A DNA stretch of 64,000 nt, taken from NCBI RefSeq assembly GCF_012933505.1, contig NZ_JABBNB010000015.1:1-64000 (forward strand), read 5' to 3'. This stretch comes from Gordonia asplenii. GTDB taxonomy: Bacteria; Actinomycetota; Actinomycetes; Mycobacteriales; Mycobacteriaceae. A program made the position numbers and the translations under genes. Positions 54,536 through 61,879 of the stretch are shown in pieces; positions within the stretch are counted from its first letter, which is position 1; every line of letters begins with the position of its first letter. The notes below the pieces were generated by a model. That model was not told the DNA's origin. It was given only the letters and a program-made list of their open reading frames with translations, and did no database searches.

Positions 54536-55828
54536 GTGAACGTCCGGTGGGGAAACGATCAGGTGCTGACCCTGGCGCCCGACGCTGCCTCCGTCACGGC
54601 GGGACGCAAGATCGCCTCCGCGGGGTGGTCGGACGAGGGAGCCACCGAGTCGGCGGTGTGGGGACTGTGCAAGGGCAGCGGCAAGAACCCCTATCAAACG
54701 ATCGTCGACGTCACCGGTCCCGCGTACAAATGCTCCTGCCCATCGCGCAAGTTCCCCTGCAAACACGCGCTCGGCCTGTTGCTGCGGTGGAGTGCTGGAA
54801 CGGTGCCCGACGCCGAACGGCCGGCACCGTTCGCGGCGACGTGGCTCGACGCCCGCGCGGCGAAAGCGACGGCCACCACCGATACCGCGAAGAAGCCCCG
54901 CGACCCGGAGCAGGCCGCGAAGACCGCCGCGGCCCGCCGCGCCCGTGTCGACACCGGCGTCGCCGAGTTGCTGATGTGGGCCGACGATCAGATCGCGTCG
55001 GGCCTGGCCGGCGCCGACGTCAACCCGTACGCGCGCTTCGATCCGATGGCCGCGCGACTCGTCGACGCCCAGGCGTCGGGGTTGGCCCGCCGCATACGAC
55101 GCCTCCCCGAGGTGATCACCGGAGCCCACTGGCCCGCCGACCTGCTCACCGAACTCGGGTCGGTCTGGGCGCTCGCTCGCGCGCATCAACGCCTCGACGA
55201 GCTCGAGCCCGCACTGGCTGACTCCGTCCGCAGGCATGTGGGCTATTCCGTCCCGAAGGACGTCGTGCTCGCGACCCCCGGCGTCGAAGACACCTGGGTG
55301 GTACTGGGAACGCTGGATACCGAGGAAGATCGACTGCTCACCCGGCGTACGTGGCTGTACGGTCGGCATTCGCAGCGATACGCCCTGCTCCTCGACTTCG
55401 CCCCACCCGGTGCGTCCTTGCCGGGCAGGCCGCCGGTGGGGGTGGCCGTGACCGCGACGCTGCACTACTACCCCGGGGCCGTCGCACAACGAGCAGTACC
55501 GGCCGGCGAGCTGACCGCGGTCGACGCCGTACCCGCCGCGCCGCTCGGACTATCCGCGCGCGCGGCCCGCAACGTCCTCGCGCAGGGCGTGGCAGCCGAT
55601 CCGTGGCTCGCCCTCGTGCCGGTCGCCGTCGACGGTCGGCTGGGGACCGCGGGCCAAGCGCATGTCGTGATCGACGACGCCGGGGACGCACTCCCTCTGC
55701 GGGTAGGTGACTGGGCGAGTGCCGTCGCGATCAGCGCAGGTGCCCCGGTGGTCGTGTTCGGCGAGCTCAGCAGCACCGGACTCAAGGCAATGTCGATGAC
55801 GGTCGACGGACGGGTGTGGCCACTATGA
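54536..55828 (+). CDS. SWIM zinc-finger protein
   Basis: 430 residues. The SWIM finger lies at C66-x-C68-x6-C75-x-H77 (YKCSCPSRKFPCKHALGLLL). The rest is an alpha/beta region of unknown fold, with an Ala/Lys-rich linker around 100-135. SWIM domains bind DNA or proteins. It resembles YehQ of E. coli, whose gene is linked to MoxR- and VWA-type genes. GTG start at 54536. First gene of a five-gene cassette; its stop overlaps the next ATG by 4 bp. Confidence 0.85.
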   Translation: MNVRWGNDQVLTLAPDAASVTAGRKIASAGWSDEGATESAVWGLCKGSGKNPYQTIVDVTGPAYKCSCPSRKFPCKHALGLLLRWSAGTVPDAERPAPFAATWLDARAAKATATTDTAKKPRDPEQAAKTAAARRARVDTGVAELLMWADDQIASGLAGADVNPYARFDPMAARLVDAQASGLARRIRRLPEVITGAHWPADLLTELGSVWALARAHQRLDELEPALADSVRRHVGYSVPKDVVLATPGVEDTWVVLGTLDTEEDRLLTRRTWLYGRHSQRYALLLDFAPPGASLPGRPPVGVAVTATLHYYPGAVAQRAVPAGELTAVDAVPAAPLGLSARAARNVLAQGVAADPWLALVPVAVDGRLGTAGQAHVVIDDAGDALPLRVGDWASAVAISAGAPVVVFGELSSTGLKAMSMTVDGRVWPL

Positions 55829-57357
55829 CCACGCCGCAATCGCAAGGCGCACAACACCAGTGGGACTCGGTGGTCTCGGCGGCGCTCGTCGGTGTCAGCG
55901 GACGCACGGTGAATGCCGTCGGTGCTGACCCGGCCATCGTCGAATATCTCAGCGGCACAACAGATTCTGCTCAGCTGGTGTTGGAGACCGCCGCACTGGC
56001 GTCGACGGCGGCACGGGCCACCGTCGACGTGATCGGCGAGGCCGAACCAATCGAGAGCGCGCCGCCAGACGACCGACCGCCGATGACTCCGACCGCTGCC
56101 GAGATCGCGATTCGCATGATGGACATGGGCGGCGAGATGAACGAATGCGCACGGGAGCTGCTGCTGCGCTCCGGCCGCGCACCCACGCCGACGCTGCTGC
56201 CGGTTCTGTTGCGGCAGACGAGATCTGCGACCCTTCGAGGTGACTCGACGCAGCTCGCCGACATCGTCGGGCCGCGAGGCCGGTGGCTCAGTGGGCGAGT
56301 TCCCGAGCTCCAGGCGATGCTGCCGAGCGCCGAATCACTCGAAAACCGTGATGCCGCAATTCTTTCCGACGACGCGACGTGGAGACTCGGAACGCTCGAC
56401 GATCGGGTGAGATACCTCGAAGCCCTGCGACGAGCCGACCCGCGGCGCGGCGTCGAACTGCTGTCGGCCGGGTGGAGAGGGGAGTCGGGTGAGGACCGGG
56501 AACGACTGATCCTCGCACTCGCGATCGGCGAGGCACCCGACGACGAGCCGTTTCTCGAAGGCGCGCTCGACGACCGCCGGGGTGCCGTACGACGCCACGC
56601 GGCACGACTGCTGACCGGGCGGCCCGACTCGGCGTTGGTGGCTCGGCTCGACGCCGTGCTGTTCGGCATCGTCACCGTGGCTCGCCACGGTCCGCTCGAG
56701 TTCGAAATCGACCGGACCGCACGTATTCCCGAATCTCTGGCGCGCGACGGGATAGTCGCCGGGCGGGCCCGCGGTGCCATTCGCTTCGACGATGCGCTGA
56801 ACCAGCTCATCGGAGCAGTTCCGTTGTCGCACTGGGAGTCTCGCTTCGGCGGTACTCCCGCGGAGATCTTCGCGGCCGTCCCCGACGATCCCGCTGTCTA
56901 TCGGGACGCGATGGTCGCAGCCGTTGCCGTCCAGCGCAACCGGGAGTGGGCCCGCGCCATCGCGCCGTCGCTCTCGTCGACGGAGCACACCGGGCTGATC
57001 CGCGAGCTGATCTCCGATGAGCAGCTGCTTGCGGCCGCAGCTGACGAGCTCGACCGCATCGACGCCGCCGGGAACCTGTCCATGCTCGCGGCGGTGCCCC
57101 GACCGTGGCCCACCGAACTGTCGCTGCGGGCGTGCGGCCTGCTCCGGGCGGGAGGCAGCGCCGCGCGATCACGCACCCTGCTCGGCTTCATGCGGACCGC
57201 GCTCCCGGTCGACGACGCCACCGCCGACTCTCCCGGTCGGTGGATCGTCGAACTCAACCGGATCCGCGAGCAGGCCCACGCGCAACTGCAAGCACCCATC
57301 GCCACCACCGTCGAAGCCCTCCAACTCCGAATAGCACTCACAAGGGAGCTCTCGTGA
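55825..57357 (+). CDS. DUF5691 family protein
   Basis: 510 residues, ATG overlapping the SWIM stop. Largely alpha-helical, with a HEAT-like repeat region (AAEIAIRMMDMGGEMNECARELLLRSG; DRRGAVRRHAARLLTGRPDSALVARL). N-terminal block WDSVVSAALVGVSGRTVNAVG is typical of DUF5691 proteins of SWIM/MoxR loci. No catalytic motif is seen; a scaffold or adaptor role is plausible. The stop overlaps the next gene start by 4 bp. Confidence 0.8.
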   Translation: MTTPQSQGAQHQWDSVVSAALVGVSGRTVNAVGADPAIVEYLSGTTDSAQLVLETAALASTAARATVDVIGEAEPIESAPPDDRPPMTPTAAEIAIRMMDMGGEMNECARELLLRSGRAPTPTLLPVLLRQTRSATLRGDSTQLADIVGPRGRWLSGRVPELQAMLPSAESLENRDAAILSDDATWRLGTLDDRVRYLEALRRADPRRGVELLSAGWRGESGEDRERLILALAIGEAPDDEPFLEGALDDRRGAVRRHAARLLTGRPDSALVARLDAVLFGIVTVARHGPLEFEIDRTARIPESLARDGIVAGRARGAIRFDDALNQLIGAVPLSHWESRFGGTPAEIFAAVPDDPAVYRDAMVAAVAVQRNREWARAIAPSLSSTEHTGLIRELISDEQLLAAAADELDRIDAAGNLSMLAAVPRPWPTELSLRACGLLRAGGSAARSRTLLGFMRTALPVDDATADSPGRWIVELNRIREQAHAQLQAPIATTVEALQLRIALTRELS

Positions 57358-58439
57358 CCGACAATCTCCTTCGCCCGCACGCCGAGCAGACTTTCGCGGC
57401 CGAACTCGCGGCCCTGGCCCGCGCGGACACCGCCGCCCGGCCGGCGAATTGGAACCTCTCGCCGACCGCGGTGGTCGACTACCTGATCGGCACCACCCTC
57501 GACGACGCCACCGTCATCACGCCGAAGTACATCGGTCCGCGCCGGATCATCGAGGTGGCGGTCGCAACGCTGGCCACCGACCGTGCACTGCTCCTCCTCG
57601 GTGTGCCCGGAACCGCGAAAACCTGGGTGTCCGAACATCTTTCGGCCGCCATCTCGGGACGGTCGACGCTGCTCGTGCAAGGTACGGCCGGTACGCCCGA
57701 GGAGGCGATCCGGTACGGCTGGAACTATGCCCGCCTCATCGCCGAAGGGCCCAGCGAGGCCGCGCTGGTCTCCTCGCCGATCATGACCGCGATGCGTGAG
57801 GGCAAGATCGCCCGGCTCGAGGAGCTGACCCGCATTCCGTCCGACGTCCAGGACGCCCTCATCACCGTGCTGTCCGAGAAGACCCTGCCGATTCCCGAAT
57901 TGGGCACCGAAATCCAGGCGACCCGCGGATTCAATCTCATCGCGACCGCCAACGACCGGGACCGCGGCGTCAACGATCTCTCGTCGGCGTTGCGCAGGCG
58001 TTTCAACACGGTGGTGCTTCCGCTCCCGGCGTCGGCCGACGAAGAGGTGGCGATCGTGACCCAGCGGGTCGCCGACCTCGGCGCGGCACTCGAACTTCCC
58101 GAACTGCCGTCGCCCGCCGACGAGATCCGGCGGGTGGTCACCGTGTTCCGCGAGCTGCGCTCCGGTCTCACCGAGGACGGCCGCACCAAGGTGAAACAGC
58201 CCAGTGGCACACTGTCGACCGCTGAGGCGATTTCCGTTGTGACGCAGGGGATTGCGATGTCCGCGCATTTCGGTGACGGCGTGCTGCGGCCCGCCGACGT
58301 CGCCGCGGGTATCCATGGTGCGGTGATCAAGGACCCGTCGTCGGACGCGGTCATCTGGACCGAGTATCTGGAGTCGGTGGTCCGCGACCGCGACGACTGG
58401 GCCGACTTCTATCGAGCCGCCCGCGGCGCGCTGAGCTGA
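57354..58439 (+). CDS. MoxR-type AAA+ ATPase
   Basis: 361 residues. Walker A GVPGTAKTW (83-91), Walker B IARLEEL (near 152-158, E-E), sensor 1 LIATANDRDRGVNDLSSALRRRFN, arginine finger RRRF. MoxR ATPases (RavA, NorQ, CbbQ and YehL types) pair with VWA proteins to remodel or activate metal enzymes. GTG start overlaps the DUF5691 stop. Downstream, within 253 bp of the shared cassette logic, lie DUF5682 and the VWA partner. Confidence 0.92.
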   Translation: MTDNLLRPHAEQTFAAELAALARADTAARPANWNLSPTAVVDYLIGTTLDDATVITPKYIGPRRIIEVAVATLATDRALLLLGVPGTAKTWVSEHLSAAISGRSTLLVQGTAGTPEEAIRYGWNYARLIAEGPSEAALVSSPIMTAMREGKIARLEELTRIPSDVQDALITVLSEKTLPIPELGTEIQATRGFNLIATANDRDRGVNDLSSALRRRFNTVVLPLPASADEEVAIVTQRVADLGAALELPELPSPADEIRRVVTVFRELRSGLTEDGRTKVKQPSGTLSTAEAISVVTQGIAMSAHFGDGVLRPADVAAGIHGAVIKDPSSDAVIWTEYLESVVRDRDDWADFYRAARGALS

Positions 58440-58443
58440 GCTC

Positions 58444-60702
58444 GTGGTGTCCGGCTCCGACGTCGTGACGACGCACATCCTCGGGATCCGCCACCACGGT
58501 CCCGGGTCGGCGCGCGCCGTTCGTGCCGAACTCGACCGACTCGCCCCCGACGCCGTGCTCATCGAGGGGCCGGCCGACGCGTCGGCGCACATTCCGATGA
58601 GCGTCGCCGACGGGATGGCGCCGCCGGTCGCACTGCTCGGCTACGTCGCGGCCGATCCCCGCCGCGCGGCGTTCTGGCCGTTCGGAGTCTTCTCCCCGGA
58701 ATGGCAGGCCATGACGTGGGCGGTGAAACATGGTGTGCACGTGGAATTCTGCGATCTCCCGACCACGATGAGCCTCGCACCGGAACCGGCCGAGGAAACC
58801 GTCGGCGCCGACGATGACGCACCTGACACCGATCCCAGCGGCCCGGGCGACTATCTCCGCCGCGACCCCATCGCCTTGCTGGCCCGCGCCGCCGACTACG
58901 ACGATCCCGAACGCTGGTGGGACGACGTCGTCGAAACACGTTCCGGCGGTGGGGGATTCGATGCGATCACGGAGGCCATGACGATGCTGCGCGAGCGGGT
59001 CGGCGACACCATCGGTGACGCCGCCCGAGACGAGCGGCGAGAAGCCTATATGCGCCAGTGTCTGCGTAAGGCGATGAAACGGGAAGGCGTACAACGTATT
59101 GCGGTCGTGTGCGGAGCCTGGCACGCGCCGGCACTCGTCGGCAGACTGGGGCCGGCGGCCGCCGATGCGCGGCTGCTGACCGGAACGCCGAAGGTCAAGA
59201 CCAGCGTCGCATGGGTCCCCTGGACGCATTCGCGTCTGGCCGTGTCATCCGGTTATGGTGCGGGCGTCGTCTCCCCGGGCTGGTATCACCATCTCTTCGT
59301 CACCACCGACGACGTCGTGATCCGGTGGCTCACCGATGTAGCAAATCTATTGCGCGCCAACGATATCTCGGTATCGTCGGCGCACATCATCGAAACGGCA
59401 CGCCTCGCGTCGACACTCGCGGTGCTGCGCCGCCGTCCGTTGGCCGGACTCGAGGAGATCCGTGAGGCAACGCTCGCGGTGCTGTGCGACGGCCGCCCGG
59501 AGCTGCTCGCACTCGTCGAACGCGACGCGGTGGTGGGGGAGAAGCTCGGCAGCGTCCCCGACGACGCGCCGATCGTGCCGCTGCAAGCGGACCTCACCGC
59601 CACCGCGCGCAGTGTGCGACTGAAGTTCGACCCGGCGTCGAAGGAATTGGTACTCGACCTGCGCCGCCCCGCCGACATCGGCAAGTCGCACCTCCTGCAT
59701 CGGCTCCGCGTACTGGGAATCGACTGGGGCACAACGCAAGCGGTCCGCGGGACCGGAACGTTCAAAGAAGGCTGGGTGATTTCCTGGCAGCCCGACTTCG
59801 CCGTCGACGTCGTCCTCGCATCGGTGTGGGGCACCACCGTAGAACAGGCCACCGTGGCCAAGCTCGTCGACGCGGCGGCCACGGCGTCGACGCTGGCCGA
59901 CATCACCACCGCTCTGGAGAGGGCGCTGCTGGCGGCCGCGTCGGGAGCGGTGAACGACATCATCTCCGCCCTGCACGACCGAGCAGCGCTCGACCGTGAC
60001 GTCGCACATCTCATGGAAGCCTTGCCCGCGCTCGGTCGGGCCCGGCGCTACGGCGATGTCCGTGGCACCGACACCGCCGCCCTGGCCACCGTCGCGAGTG
60101 GCCTGCTGGTACGTGTCTGCGTCGGATTGCCTTCTGCGGTAACGAGTCTCGACGAGACCGCGGCGAGTGAGCTGAAACTCCTCGTCGACGGCGTGCAGGA
60201 CACGGTCGGGTTGCTCGACGCCGAAGATCGCGATCGCTGGTACGCGGCGCTGTCGTCGGTGTCGCGGCGCAGCGACGTGAACGGCATCCTCCTCGGCCGG
60301 ATCGTGCGACTGCTGCTCGATGCCGGCGTGATCACCAGCGACGACGCGGCGCTGCGTCTGACGCGGGCACTGTCCGCAGGGGCGACACCCATGGAGAAGG
60401 CCCGCTGGGTCGAGGGCTTTCTCGGCGACAGCGGGATTCTCCTCGTCCACGACCGGGCGCTGCTGGGCGTCGTCGACGAGTGGCTGAGCGGATTGCGGGA
60501 ACAAGACTTCACCGACGTTCTGCCGTTGCTGCGCAGAACATTCGGCTTGTTCGACGCCGGGGTGCGGCGCAACATCGCCGATCGACTGCGCTCCGGTGCC
60601 GAAGGCCGCGCACCGCAGCGAACATCGATGTTCGACGCCGAGCTGGTCGCCCCGGCGTTGGCCACGATGGCCCGGATCCTGGAGTTGCCCCATGTCGGAT
60701 GA
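58444..60702 (+). CDS. DUF5682 family protein with a TraB/ChaN-like N-terminus
   Basis: 752 residues. The N-terminal third begins HILGIRHHGPGSARAVRAELDRLAPDAVLIEGP and later has RIAVVCGAWHAPALVG. These give two G-x2-H motifs (GIRH 14-17, GAWH 224-227) and a conserved Glu (E41), the layout of the TraB/PrgY, ChaN and EreA superfamily, which includes metalloproteases and esterases. The remaining ~500 residues are mostly helical without known motifs. The family accompanies MoxR and VWA genes and is similar in size to E. coli YehM. GTG start 4 bp after the ATPase stop; the end overlaps the VWA gene by 11 bp. Confidence 0.85.
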   Translation: MVSGSDVVTTHILGIRHHGPGSARAVRAELDRLAPDAVLIEGPADASAHIPMSVADGMAPPVALLGYVAADPRRAAFWPFGVFSPEWQAMTWAVKHGVHVEFCDLPTTMSLAPEPAEETVGADDDAPDTDPSGPGDYLRRDPIALLARAADYDDPERWWDDVVETRSGGGGFDAITEAMTMLRERVGDTIGDAARDERREAYMRQCLRKAMKREGVQRIAVVCGAWHAPALVGRLGPAAADARLLTGTPKVKTSVAWVPWTHSRLAVSSGYGAGVVSPGWYHHLFVTTDDVVIRWLTDVANLLRANDISVSSAHIIETARLASTLAVLRRRPLAGLEEIREATLAVLCDGRPELLALVERDAVVGEKLGSVPDDAPIVPLQADLTATARSVRLKFDPASKELVLDLRRPADIGKSHLLHRLRVLGIDWGTTQAVRGTGTFKEGWVISWQPDFAVDVVLASVWGTTVEQATVAKLVDAAATASTLADITTALERALLAAASGAVNDIISALHDRAALDRDVAHLMEALPALGRARRYGDVRGTDTAALATVASGLLVRVCVGLPSAVTSLDETAASELKLLVDGVQDTVGLLDAEDRDRWYAALSSVSRRSDVNGILLGRIVRLLLDAGVITSDDAALRLTRALSAGATPMEKARWVEGFLGDSGILLVHDRALLGVVDEWLSGLREQDFTDVLPLLRRTFGLFDAGVRRNIADRLRSGAEGRAPQRTSMFDAELVAPALATMARILELPHVG

Positions 60703-61879
60703 CATCGAACGCAATCGACGTTGGCGGCTGGTCCTGGGTGACGCGGCCGACGACCGGCTCGGTGCGGTGTCGGTCGGTGGCGCGGGCCTGAGCGGCGCCG
60801 ATCTCGGCATGGACGGTGCGCTGAGCAAGTTGTACAACGCCGAGAATCGAGATCGTCGGGGCGGACTCGGATCGTCGGCACCGTCGGTCGCCCGATGGCT
60901 CGGCGACATCCGCAAGTACTTCCCGTCGACCGTCGTGCAGGTGATGCAGCACGACGCCGTCGAGCGCCTCAACCTGCACAGTCTGCTCGCCGAACCGGAG
61001 CTCATCGACTCGGTAGAACCGAACATCGACATGGTCACGACGCTGATCGCGCTCGGGAAGGCGATTCCGGAGACGTCGAAGTCGTCGGCCCGGATTCTGG
61101 TGCGGCGAGTCGTCGACGAGGTGGAAAAGCGAATCGCGCAGCGCACCCGCGCCGCGGTGACCGGAGCCTTGAACAGAGCTACCCGGGTACACCGCCCGCG
61201 GCCGGGCGACATCGACTGGAACGCGACCATCGGCCACAATCTTGCGAACTACCTGCCGGAACAGAAGACGATCGTCCCGCAACGGCTCGTCGGATACGGC
61301 CGGCGAAAGTCCGCGGTGGGCAAGCACGTGGTGCTCGCGATCGATCAATCAGGATCGATGGCCGAGTCGATCGTGTACTCGTCGATCTTCGGTGCGGTGC
61401 TCGCGTCGATGCGCTCGATTCGGACGTCGCTGGTGGTCTTCGATACCGACGTGGTGGACCTCTCCGACCAACTCGACGATCCGGTGGACGTGCTGTTCGG
61501 AACCACCCTCGGCGGCGGCACCGATATCAATCGGGCCATTGCCTATTGCCAGGGATTGATAACTCGTCCGAACGACTCGATTTTCGTTCTGATATCCGAT
61601 CTTTACGAAGGCGGAGTTCGCGAGGAAATGCTCAAGCGTGTCGTTGCGATGGCGGCCGCCGGAATACAGGTGCTGGTTTTGCTGGCGCTGTCCGACGAAG
61701 GTGCCCCGGCGTTCGATCGCGAGATCGCAACCGCGTTGTCGGGCATGGGAATTCCGGCATTCGCGTGCACCCCCGATGCGTTTCCAGAGTTGCTGGCGGT
61801 GGCCATCGAGCGCGGTGACATCGTCGGCTGGGCCGATCGGAATGAGTTGGCGAAGCGCGGAATGGCCGACGAGAGTTAG
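60692..61879 (+). CDS. VWA domain protein, MoxR partner
   Basis: 395 residues. N-terminal ~200 residues are helical (WRLVLGDAADDRLG, then MDGALSKLYN). The von Willebrand A domain begins at KHVVLAIDQSGSM, with MIDAS residues D218-x-S-x-S222, Thr in GTTLGGGTDI and Asp in FVLISDLYEGG. Resembles CoxE-like and YehP proteins. VWA proteins of this type dock MoxR rings to their targets. Start ATG 60692 inside the end of DUF5682 with GGAG upstream. Last gene of the cassette. Confidence 0.9.
   Translation: MSDDIERNRRWRLVLGDAADDRLGAVSVGGAGLSGADLGMDGALSKLYNAENRDRRGGLGSSAPSVARWLGDIRKYFPSTVVQVMQHDAVERLNLHSLLAEPELIDSVEPNIDMVTTLIALGKAIPETSKSSARILVRRVVDEVEKRIAQRTRAAVTGALNRATRVHRPRPGDIDWNATIGHNLANYLPEQKTIVPQRLVGYGRRKSAVGKHVVLAIDQSGSMAESIVYSSIFGAVLASMRSIRTSLVVFDTDVVDLSDQLDDPVDVLFGTTLGGGTDINRAIAYCQGLITRPNDSIFVLISDLYEGGVREEMLKRVVAMAAAGIQVLVLLALSDEGAPAFDREIATALSGMGIPAFACTPDAFPELLAVAIERGDIVGWADRNELAKRGMADES

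Follow-up and report, generated by a model that had tools for sequence, protein, structure and literature searches.

What does a cell gain from a MoxR-type AAA+ ATPase and a VWA protein whose genes are packed together with those for a SWIM zinc-finger protein and for members of two Pfam families of unknown function, DUF5691 and DUF5682? Five such genes occupy positions 54536-61879 on the + strand of the window, the 64,000-nucleotide stretch of Gordonia asplenii DNA analysed here (contig NZ_JABBNB010000015.1, positions 1 to 64,000). We propose, as a reading whose chances we judge to be even, that a MoxR-VWA machine gates or feeds a TraB-like DUF5682 hydrolase while the SWIM and DUF5691 proteins pick its target. 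That the five proteins form one functional complex we predict with high confidence. The genes are laid out as follows.

54536..55828, + strand: SWIM zinc-finger protein, YehQ homologue; GTG start; PF04434 (2e-6)
55825..57357, + strand: DUF5691 protein; ATG start, overlapping the SWIM gene by 4 bp (ATGA); PF18944 (6.3e-81)
57354..58439, + strand: MoxR-type AAA+ ATPase, YehL-like; GTG start; AAA_5, PF07728 (6.1e-40)
58444..60702, + strand: DUF5682 protein, YehM homologue; GTG start after a 4-bp gap; PF18934 (2e-265)
60692..61879, + strand: VWA (CoxE-like) protein, YehP homologue; ATG start, 11-bp overlap; VWA_CoxE, PF05762 (2.2e-49)

This agrees with the initial annotation of the DNA, which had read five genes on one strand, three overlaps (4, 4 and 11 bp) and one 4-bp gap; Pfam also confirmed the SWIM, DUF5691, MoxR-type AAA, DUF5682 and VWA families that it had named. 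The MoxR gene starts within a 4-bp overlap with the DUF5691 gene (GTGA), closely preceded by AAGGGAG. In a mechanical list of open reading frames (ORFs), three of the genes begin further upstream (55816, 57105 and 60596), and translational coupling depends on the chosen internal starts, which are putative.

A probable TraB/TIKI-like domain in DUF5682

The DUF5682 protein, of about 750 residues, is divided into an N-terminal TraB/TIKI-like domain (about residues 9-235), a middle region and C-terminal helical repeats (about 419-750). In profile-profile comparison the N-domain matched a six-sequence TraB/PrgY-like set at 90.1% (P 1.6e-6), with six controls at 0.3% or less, and fold comparison of a structure model (predicted local distance difference test, pLDDT, 85) assigns a TIKI fold to the same region. 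DUF5682 has in common with TraB/PrgY and TIKI hydrolases both the fold and the His-Glu and Arg-His spacing; its C-terminal helical repeats and its ties to a MoxR-VWA pair set it apart from them. We consider it very likely that the N-domain is TraB/TIKI-like.

Several results weigh against this assignment. Pfam's own TraB model (PF01963) had no match in DUF5682 by hmmscan at 0.01, and DUF5682 is therefore placed as kin at the superfamily level and not as a member of PF01963. The whole model had no PDB match in Foldseek at E 0.001. Two candidate closest relatives, YbaP/GumN-type TraB proteins and erythromycin esterase, were rejected after weak profile matches (6.4% and 1.0%); the stretch aligned with the YbaP/GumN-like set was the Arg-to-His motif, and the unrelated control DUF5691 reached 3.4%. 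Because the known-kin control, TraB against EreA, failed (0.1%) and DUF5691 scored as it did, this YbaP/esterase test has little power. Since the other profile matches were weak, superfamily membership rests on one six-sequence TraB subset together with the fold. The best structural match of the N-domain was chain E of PDB 7w5z (Tetrahymena complex IV), which may or may not belong to the TraB family.

Invariant residues outline a proposed active site in two halves.

58492..58566, + strand: proposed active site, first half (residues 17-41); all 123 sequences share H17, H18 and E41
59038..59124, + strand: proposed active site, second half (residues 199-227, with G224-A-W-H227), placed by alignment of invariant residues

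R199, E200, M203, G224 and H227 are likewise invariant in all 123 DUF5682 sequences, a set that includes YehM. TIKI enzymes have a conserved His, Glu, Arg, His motif, with a set of two His and two Glu (PMC6254334). As a point against the assignment, the second acidic residue of that set has no obvious equivalent in DUF5682: no Glu stands beside H17, and E86 and D104 are invariant candidates. A tight active-site pattern matched 26 of 144 DUF5682 and 4 of 31 TraB ORFs and none of 3591 background ORFs; a loose one matched 196 of 3593 background ORFs and has no evidential value. On balance we lean towards a predicted hydrolase site that is catalytically active. The earlier proposal that DUF5682 is the effector thus gains a TraB/TIKI hydrolase-like domain, while nothing shows it to be toxic.

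A recurring five-protein unit

Is the cassette a chance neighbourhood? We compared the best 80 of 586 confirmed DUF5682 loci (from at least 592 pattern matches in a genome collection), a sample of nearest relatives and not a random one. The window's five-gene order on one strand recurs in 53 of the 80, and a further 17 have all five genes with SWIM-DUF5691 on the opposite strand, so that the gene order, on whose conservation the initial annotation had staked its reading, is indeed conserved in other genomes. The remaining ten comprise three with SWIM but no DUF5691 in the stretch available, two with DUF5682-VWA only, two without SWIM, two with DUF5682 alone and one without VWA; in nine of these a contig or the locus itself ends close to the cassette, the exception being L102. 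Of 296 genomes of the window's phylum, 21 have DUF5682 above the cut-off and 18 have DUF5691, all 18 being among the 21. The three DUF5682 genomes without DUF5691 hold a DUF5682-VWA fusion (G204), a yehLMPQ-type locus (G124) and a locus on a 4.4-kb contig (G259). Partial DUF5691 matches below the cut-off in three genomes without DUF5682 (G049, G153, G187) were left out of these counts. Given the conserved order and the nested co-occurrence of DUF5691 and DUF5682, we reject chance neighbourhood.

The same five-gene order also occurs outside Actinomycetota, in two Leptolyngbya (L088, L096), an Isosphaeraceae metagenome-assembled genome (L108) and Thiofilum (L124). In Thiofilum's phylum, 11 of 249 genomes have DUF5682; of 11 loci examined from that phylum, four are of the five-gene type, five are of the complete yehLMPQ type, one is cut by a contig end (L183) and one has only MoxR and DUF5682 found (L181). 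The description of the cassette as an actinobacterial form of the E. coli system therefore holds as to the system and is too narrow as to taxonomy, since cyanobacteria, a planctomycete and proteobacteria share it.

Gene fusions describe the inner grouping. SWIM and DUF5691 form a single ORF at 16 of 98 loci examined, and DUF5682 and VWA form a single ORF beside the MoxR gene at six distinct loci (L035, L043, L024, L026, L027 and L028), which is a third arrangement of the system. From these fusions the unit reads as MoxR, DUF5682-VWA and SWIM-DUF5691. On the DUF5682 tree the five-gene label needs four changes, and because three other loci fall inside the group (two DUF5682 genes of cyanobacteria for which no partner was found, and a locus on a 4.4-kb contig) we claim no perfect five-gene clade.

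Other arrangements were also seen. In a fourth one, a divergent DUF5682-like ORF of more than 1000 aa lies near MoxR and VWA genes at L044, L045 and L046. Two cyanobacterial loci, L102 and L115, have DUF5682 without MoxR, VWA, SWIM or DUF5691 in the stretch available, L115 being cut near the gene. In family f29 (L038, L039, L049), ORFs of about 310-350 aa match DUF5691 in its N-terminal part only (about 145-210 profile positions).

Of 101 genomes in a single genus, probably Streptomyces as placed by the MoxR tree, 98 have DUF5691; this count is one of presence, whatever the chromosomal place. The cassette is thus probably core in Streptomyces. In the window's own genus DUF5691 exceeds the cut-off in only 17 of 59 genomes, and this accessory distribution counts against a core role there. 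Near-universality in one genus with patchiness in another is more easily explained by physiology with losses or transfers than by mobile defence, and we think core physiology, as opposed to defence, the likely setting. Among 76 named loci, with ORF names by our own reading, 20 have sucC on the downstream side; on the upstream side, 19 (among L079-L129) have a cobalamin-binding mutase-like ORF no more than 4 kb away, and 18 have an ORF that resembles an M23 peptidase; of the best ten conserved flanking ORF clusters in these loci, none spans lineages beyond streptomycetes and Catenulispora.

Kinship with the E. coli yehL-yehM-yehP-yehQ operon

The initial annotation had likened the cassette to this uncharacterised operon, and the kinship is real: MoxR, DUF5682, VWA and SWIM are homologous to YehL, YehM, YehP and YehQ. 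MoxR and YehL are 39.8% identical over 362 columns (5.5e-74), and VWA and YehP 32.9% over 368 columns (4.95e-65). YehM is a full-length DUF5682 protein (PF18934, 2.4e-98) with 27.7% identity to the window's over 754 columns. Pfam SWIM is found in both the window's SWIM protein and YehQ; single-sequence BLAST gave no match between the two, whereas profile-profile comparison of 86 with 10 sequences matched them at 88% (P 3.2e-6) over 138 columns outside the finger, with four other profiles at 0.6% or less. A shallower comparison (8 with 4 sequences) reached 5.4% only. The similarity to YehM and YehQ on which the comparison had hinged is thus found for both proteins.

DUF5691 was, as first described, an addition: profile comparison found no counterpart to it in YehQ (0.1%), and its helical nature is supported by the model of a fused homologue (DUF5691 part 31% identical), which fold comparison suggests to be an alpha-helical solenoid. 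For the SWIM protein, modelling of a fused homologue (45% identical in its SWIM part) likewise predicts a C-terminal beta region, and alignment of eight homologues gives the finger as C66-x-C68-x6-C75-x-H77. SWIM fingers often bind nucleic acid. The two operons have four protein families and the MoxR-DUF5682-VWA order in common; yehQ stands at the 3' end in E. coli, whereas the window's SWIM gene stands at the 5' end and is followed by DUF5691, absent from the E. coli locus, which makes the cassette a variant and not the E. coli type itself. The window's genome also holds a further locus, MoxR-DUF5682-VWA-YehQ-like and so of the E. coli (yehLMPQ) type, on contig C54 at about 91803-94088 (L032).

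The ATPase, its VWA partner and a proposed mechanism

YehL has been named as a MoxR subfamily (PMC3893208). On the MoxR tree, which includes YehL and its kin and carries a long-branch warning, the five-gene type falls on one side of a branch (77 of 100; 76% of bootstrap trees), apart from the yeh types, and the window's protein stands beside that of Williamsia muralis (81% identity). The best match of the window's MoxR among solved structures is midasin (1e-20), followed by NorQ (2.8e-9). The P-loop of this MoxR is GVPGTAKT; when the protein was searched for the canonical G-x4-G-K-[TS] pattern, no match turned up. The VWA protein has DQSGS at residue 218, a motif of the metal ion-dependent adhesion site (MIDAS) type. 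An ATPase with a VWA partner is what the cassette shares with NorQ-NorD and RavA-ViaA, yet RavA and ViaA are not close to the window's proteins (MoxR against RavA, BLAST 0.019 over 55 columns; VWA against ViaA, 0.82 over 23). Constant DUF5682, SWIM and DUF5691 partners of MoxR-VWA pairs were found undescribed in the portions of the literature consulted.

In the NorQ-NorD pair the VWA domain inserts a finger into the pore, and a linker of NorD is remodelled by the activity of NorQ, in keeping with a twisting model (PMC13036017). By the mechanism we propose, a MoxR hexamer would pull on the VWA protein docked on DUF5682, a docking suggested by the fusion of the two proteins in some relatives. 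The pull would open, load or activate the DUF5682 hydrolase, the SWIM-DUF5691 part would recognise the target, which may sit at or close to nucleic acid, and the output would be a housekeeping stress or topology response and not phage defence. Gating of the predicted DUF5682 activity by the ATPase is a tentative step, the balance tilting slightly against it.

A link by synteny to topA regulation in Streptomyces

In Streptomyces coelicolor, a transposon in sco4804 reduces both TopA and the activity of the topA promoter, overexpression of the gene transiently raises topA and gyrB transcripts, and TopA depletion induces sco4804 and adjacent genes eightfold (PMC8120823). That study calls SCO4804 hypothetical and treats it as a possible DNA-binding regulator, with no family named in the text open to us. 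In streptomycete loci MoxR, DUF5682 and VWA are followed by sucC, several having a longer gap that holds a secreted-looking ORF. This order fits SCO4803, SCO4804, SCO4805, SCO4806, which is called secreted (PMC8120823), and SCO4808, a succinyl-CoA synthase subunit (PMC8981147), and we therefore assign MoxR, DUF5682 and VWA by synteny. The reported 815 aa and 86.04 kDa of SCO4804 (PMC8120823) amount to 105.6 Da per residue; 11 DUF5682 proteins of 792-961 aa have 104.3-107.3 Da per residue, one of them 815 aa and 86.15 kDa. With mechanically chosen starts, DUF5682 at 18 loci measures 760-827 aa, and the cassette's other four proteins, where measured, are far shorter. Synteny, length and mass together make it most probable that SCO4803-SCO4804-SCO4805 encode the MoxR, DUF5682 and VWA proteins of a locus of the five-gene type. 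A close relative of the cassette thus seems to have turned up already when genes of DNA supercoiling were screened for. Unlike the window, the streptomycete loci carry SWIM-DUF5691 on the opposite strand.

Some points tell against the topology part of our proposal. The identity of SCO4804 with DUF5682 is a strong inference from synteny, length and mass, not from SCO4804's own sequence, and the published gaps between the SCO genes (103 and 171 bp; PMC8120823) match no single locus examined. According to the same paper, 6His-SCO4804 binds DNA only non-specifically and acts indirectly, direct TopA binding was excluded by pull-down, reporter-plasmid supercoiling was unchanged, and the sco4804 insertion is polar on sco4805. 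Because of the non-specific binding, the pull-down and the unchanged supercoiling, we treat the topology link as indirect. The fullest version of the proposal sees in the cassette a new kind of ATP-gated regulatory hydrolase: a MoxR-VWA ring would switch a TIKI/TraB-type protease or esterase on a target chosen by the SWIM-solenoid part, and in streptomycetes the whole would be a core system that responds to supercoiling and controls how topoisomerases are expressed. This version is rather unlikely.

Alternative readings

The alternative that survives best, itself unlikely, is a metal-insertion or maturation chaperone resembling NorQ-NorD, in which MoxR-VWA would load a metal or cofactor into DUF5682's own TraB-like site, into an enzyme encoded elsewhere or into one encoded nearby, for instance a cobalamin enzyme. 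NorQD twists the VWA linker to drive metal insertion (PMC13036017) and NorQ is among the structural matches of MoxR, although midasin is the better one and NorQ far weaker than YehL. Tiki is described as metal-dependent, whereas the TIKI enzyme VvRRSP is metal-independent (PMC6254334). The cobalamin-binding mutase-like ORF upstream in 19 of 76 loci could supply a client and speaks for this reading, but it was seen in streptomycete and Catenulispora loci only, and no metalloenzyme is constant beside the cassette. The metal-enzyme maturation first suggested for the cassette is not supported, though it keeps some probability.

A second reading, which we consider improbable, makes DUF5682 a dead TIKI scaffold in a non-enzymatic nucleoid or transcription complex whose machine remodels a DNA-bound regulator. 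The nucleic-acid binding common among SWIM fingers would suit it, as would the non-specific DNA binding of 6His-SCO4804 and the indirect effect on topA and gyrB transcription (PMC8120823), and PMT shows that a TIKI fold can lack the catalytic set (PMC6254334). A dead scaffold would, however, be expected to lose some of H17, E41, R199 and H227, and all four are invariant in the 123 sequences.

MoxR-VWA ternary conflict systems do exist (PMC7159879, PMC10907252), and the cassette has a MoxR and VWA switch with a third protein in common with the MoxR-VWA-VMAP systems of Kaur et al. 2020 (PMC7159879). The window's MoxR also exceeds the cut-off of the bpMoxR model (30.2 bits against 27), although it scores 136.9 with AAA_5, and the distribution in the window's genus is patchy. 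An anti-phage system of this kind with DUF5682 as effector is nevertheless the least probable reading, given that the five proteins have no VMAP or effector-associated domain family in Pfam at 0.01 and a sole, weak PADLOC match (AAA to MoxR, 14.5 bits), that the same five subunits recur in fixed composition across phyla, and that the main text of PMC7159879, in the portion open to us, has no words beginning SWIM, yeh or DUF56. The defence role raised in the initial annotation likewise fits poorly with the near-universality of DUF5691 in one genus (98 of 101 genomes) and with the common chromosomal setting before sucC (20 of 76 named loci). Beside the window's cassette, the two scanned flanking genes look metabolic: the upstream one encodes a flavin adenine dinucleotide (FAD)-dependent monooxygenase, the downstream one a protein resembling S15 peptidases. 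tRNA-Ile and tRNA-Ala lie at 43.3 kb; among the scanned flanking genes and tRNAs we saw no island signs.

Significance

In the literature searched, which mostly lay outside subscription journals and preprints, we found no mention of DUF5682, DUF5691, PF18944, PF18934 or SCO4801 and no paper joining MoxR, VWA, SWIM and AAA. Within the portions of that literature open to us, two or more of yehM, yehP and yehQ were named together only in one genome announcement, and no description of a TraB/TIKI-like domain paired with a MoxR-VWA ATPase was found; PMC10910872, PMC10907252 and PMC12329661 served as background sources. Our results indicate what E. coli YehM and two hitherto uncharacterised Pfam families are likely to be, with a TraB/TIKI-like domain coupled to MoxR-VWA, and tie the family by synteny to a published, unexplained Streptomyces topA-regulation phenotype. 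Through that link, the named predicted catalytic residues open this locus, probably a core one in Streptomyces, to direct tests of its function.

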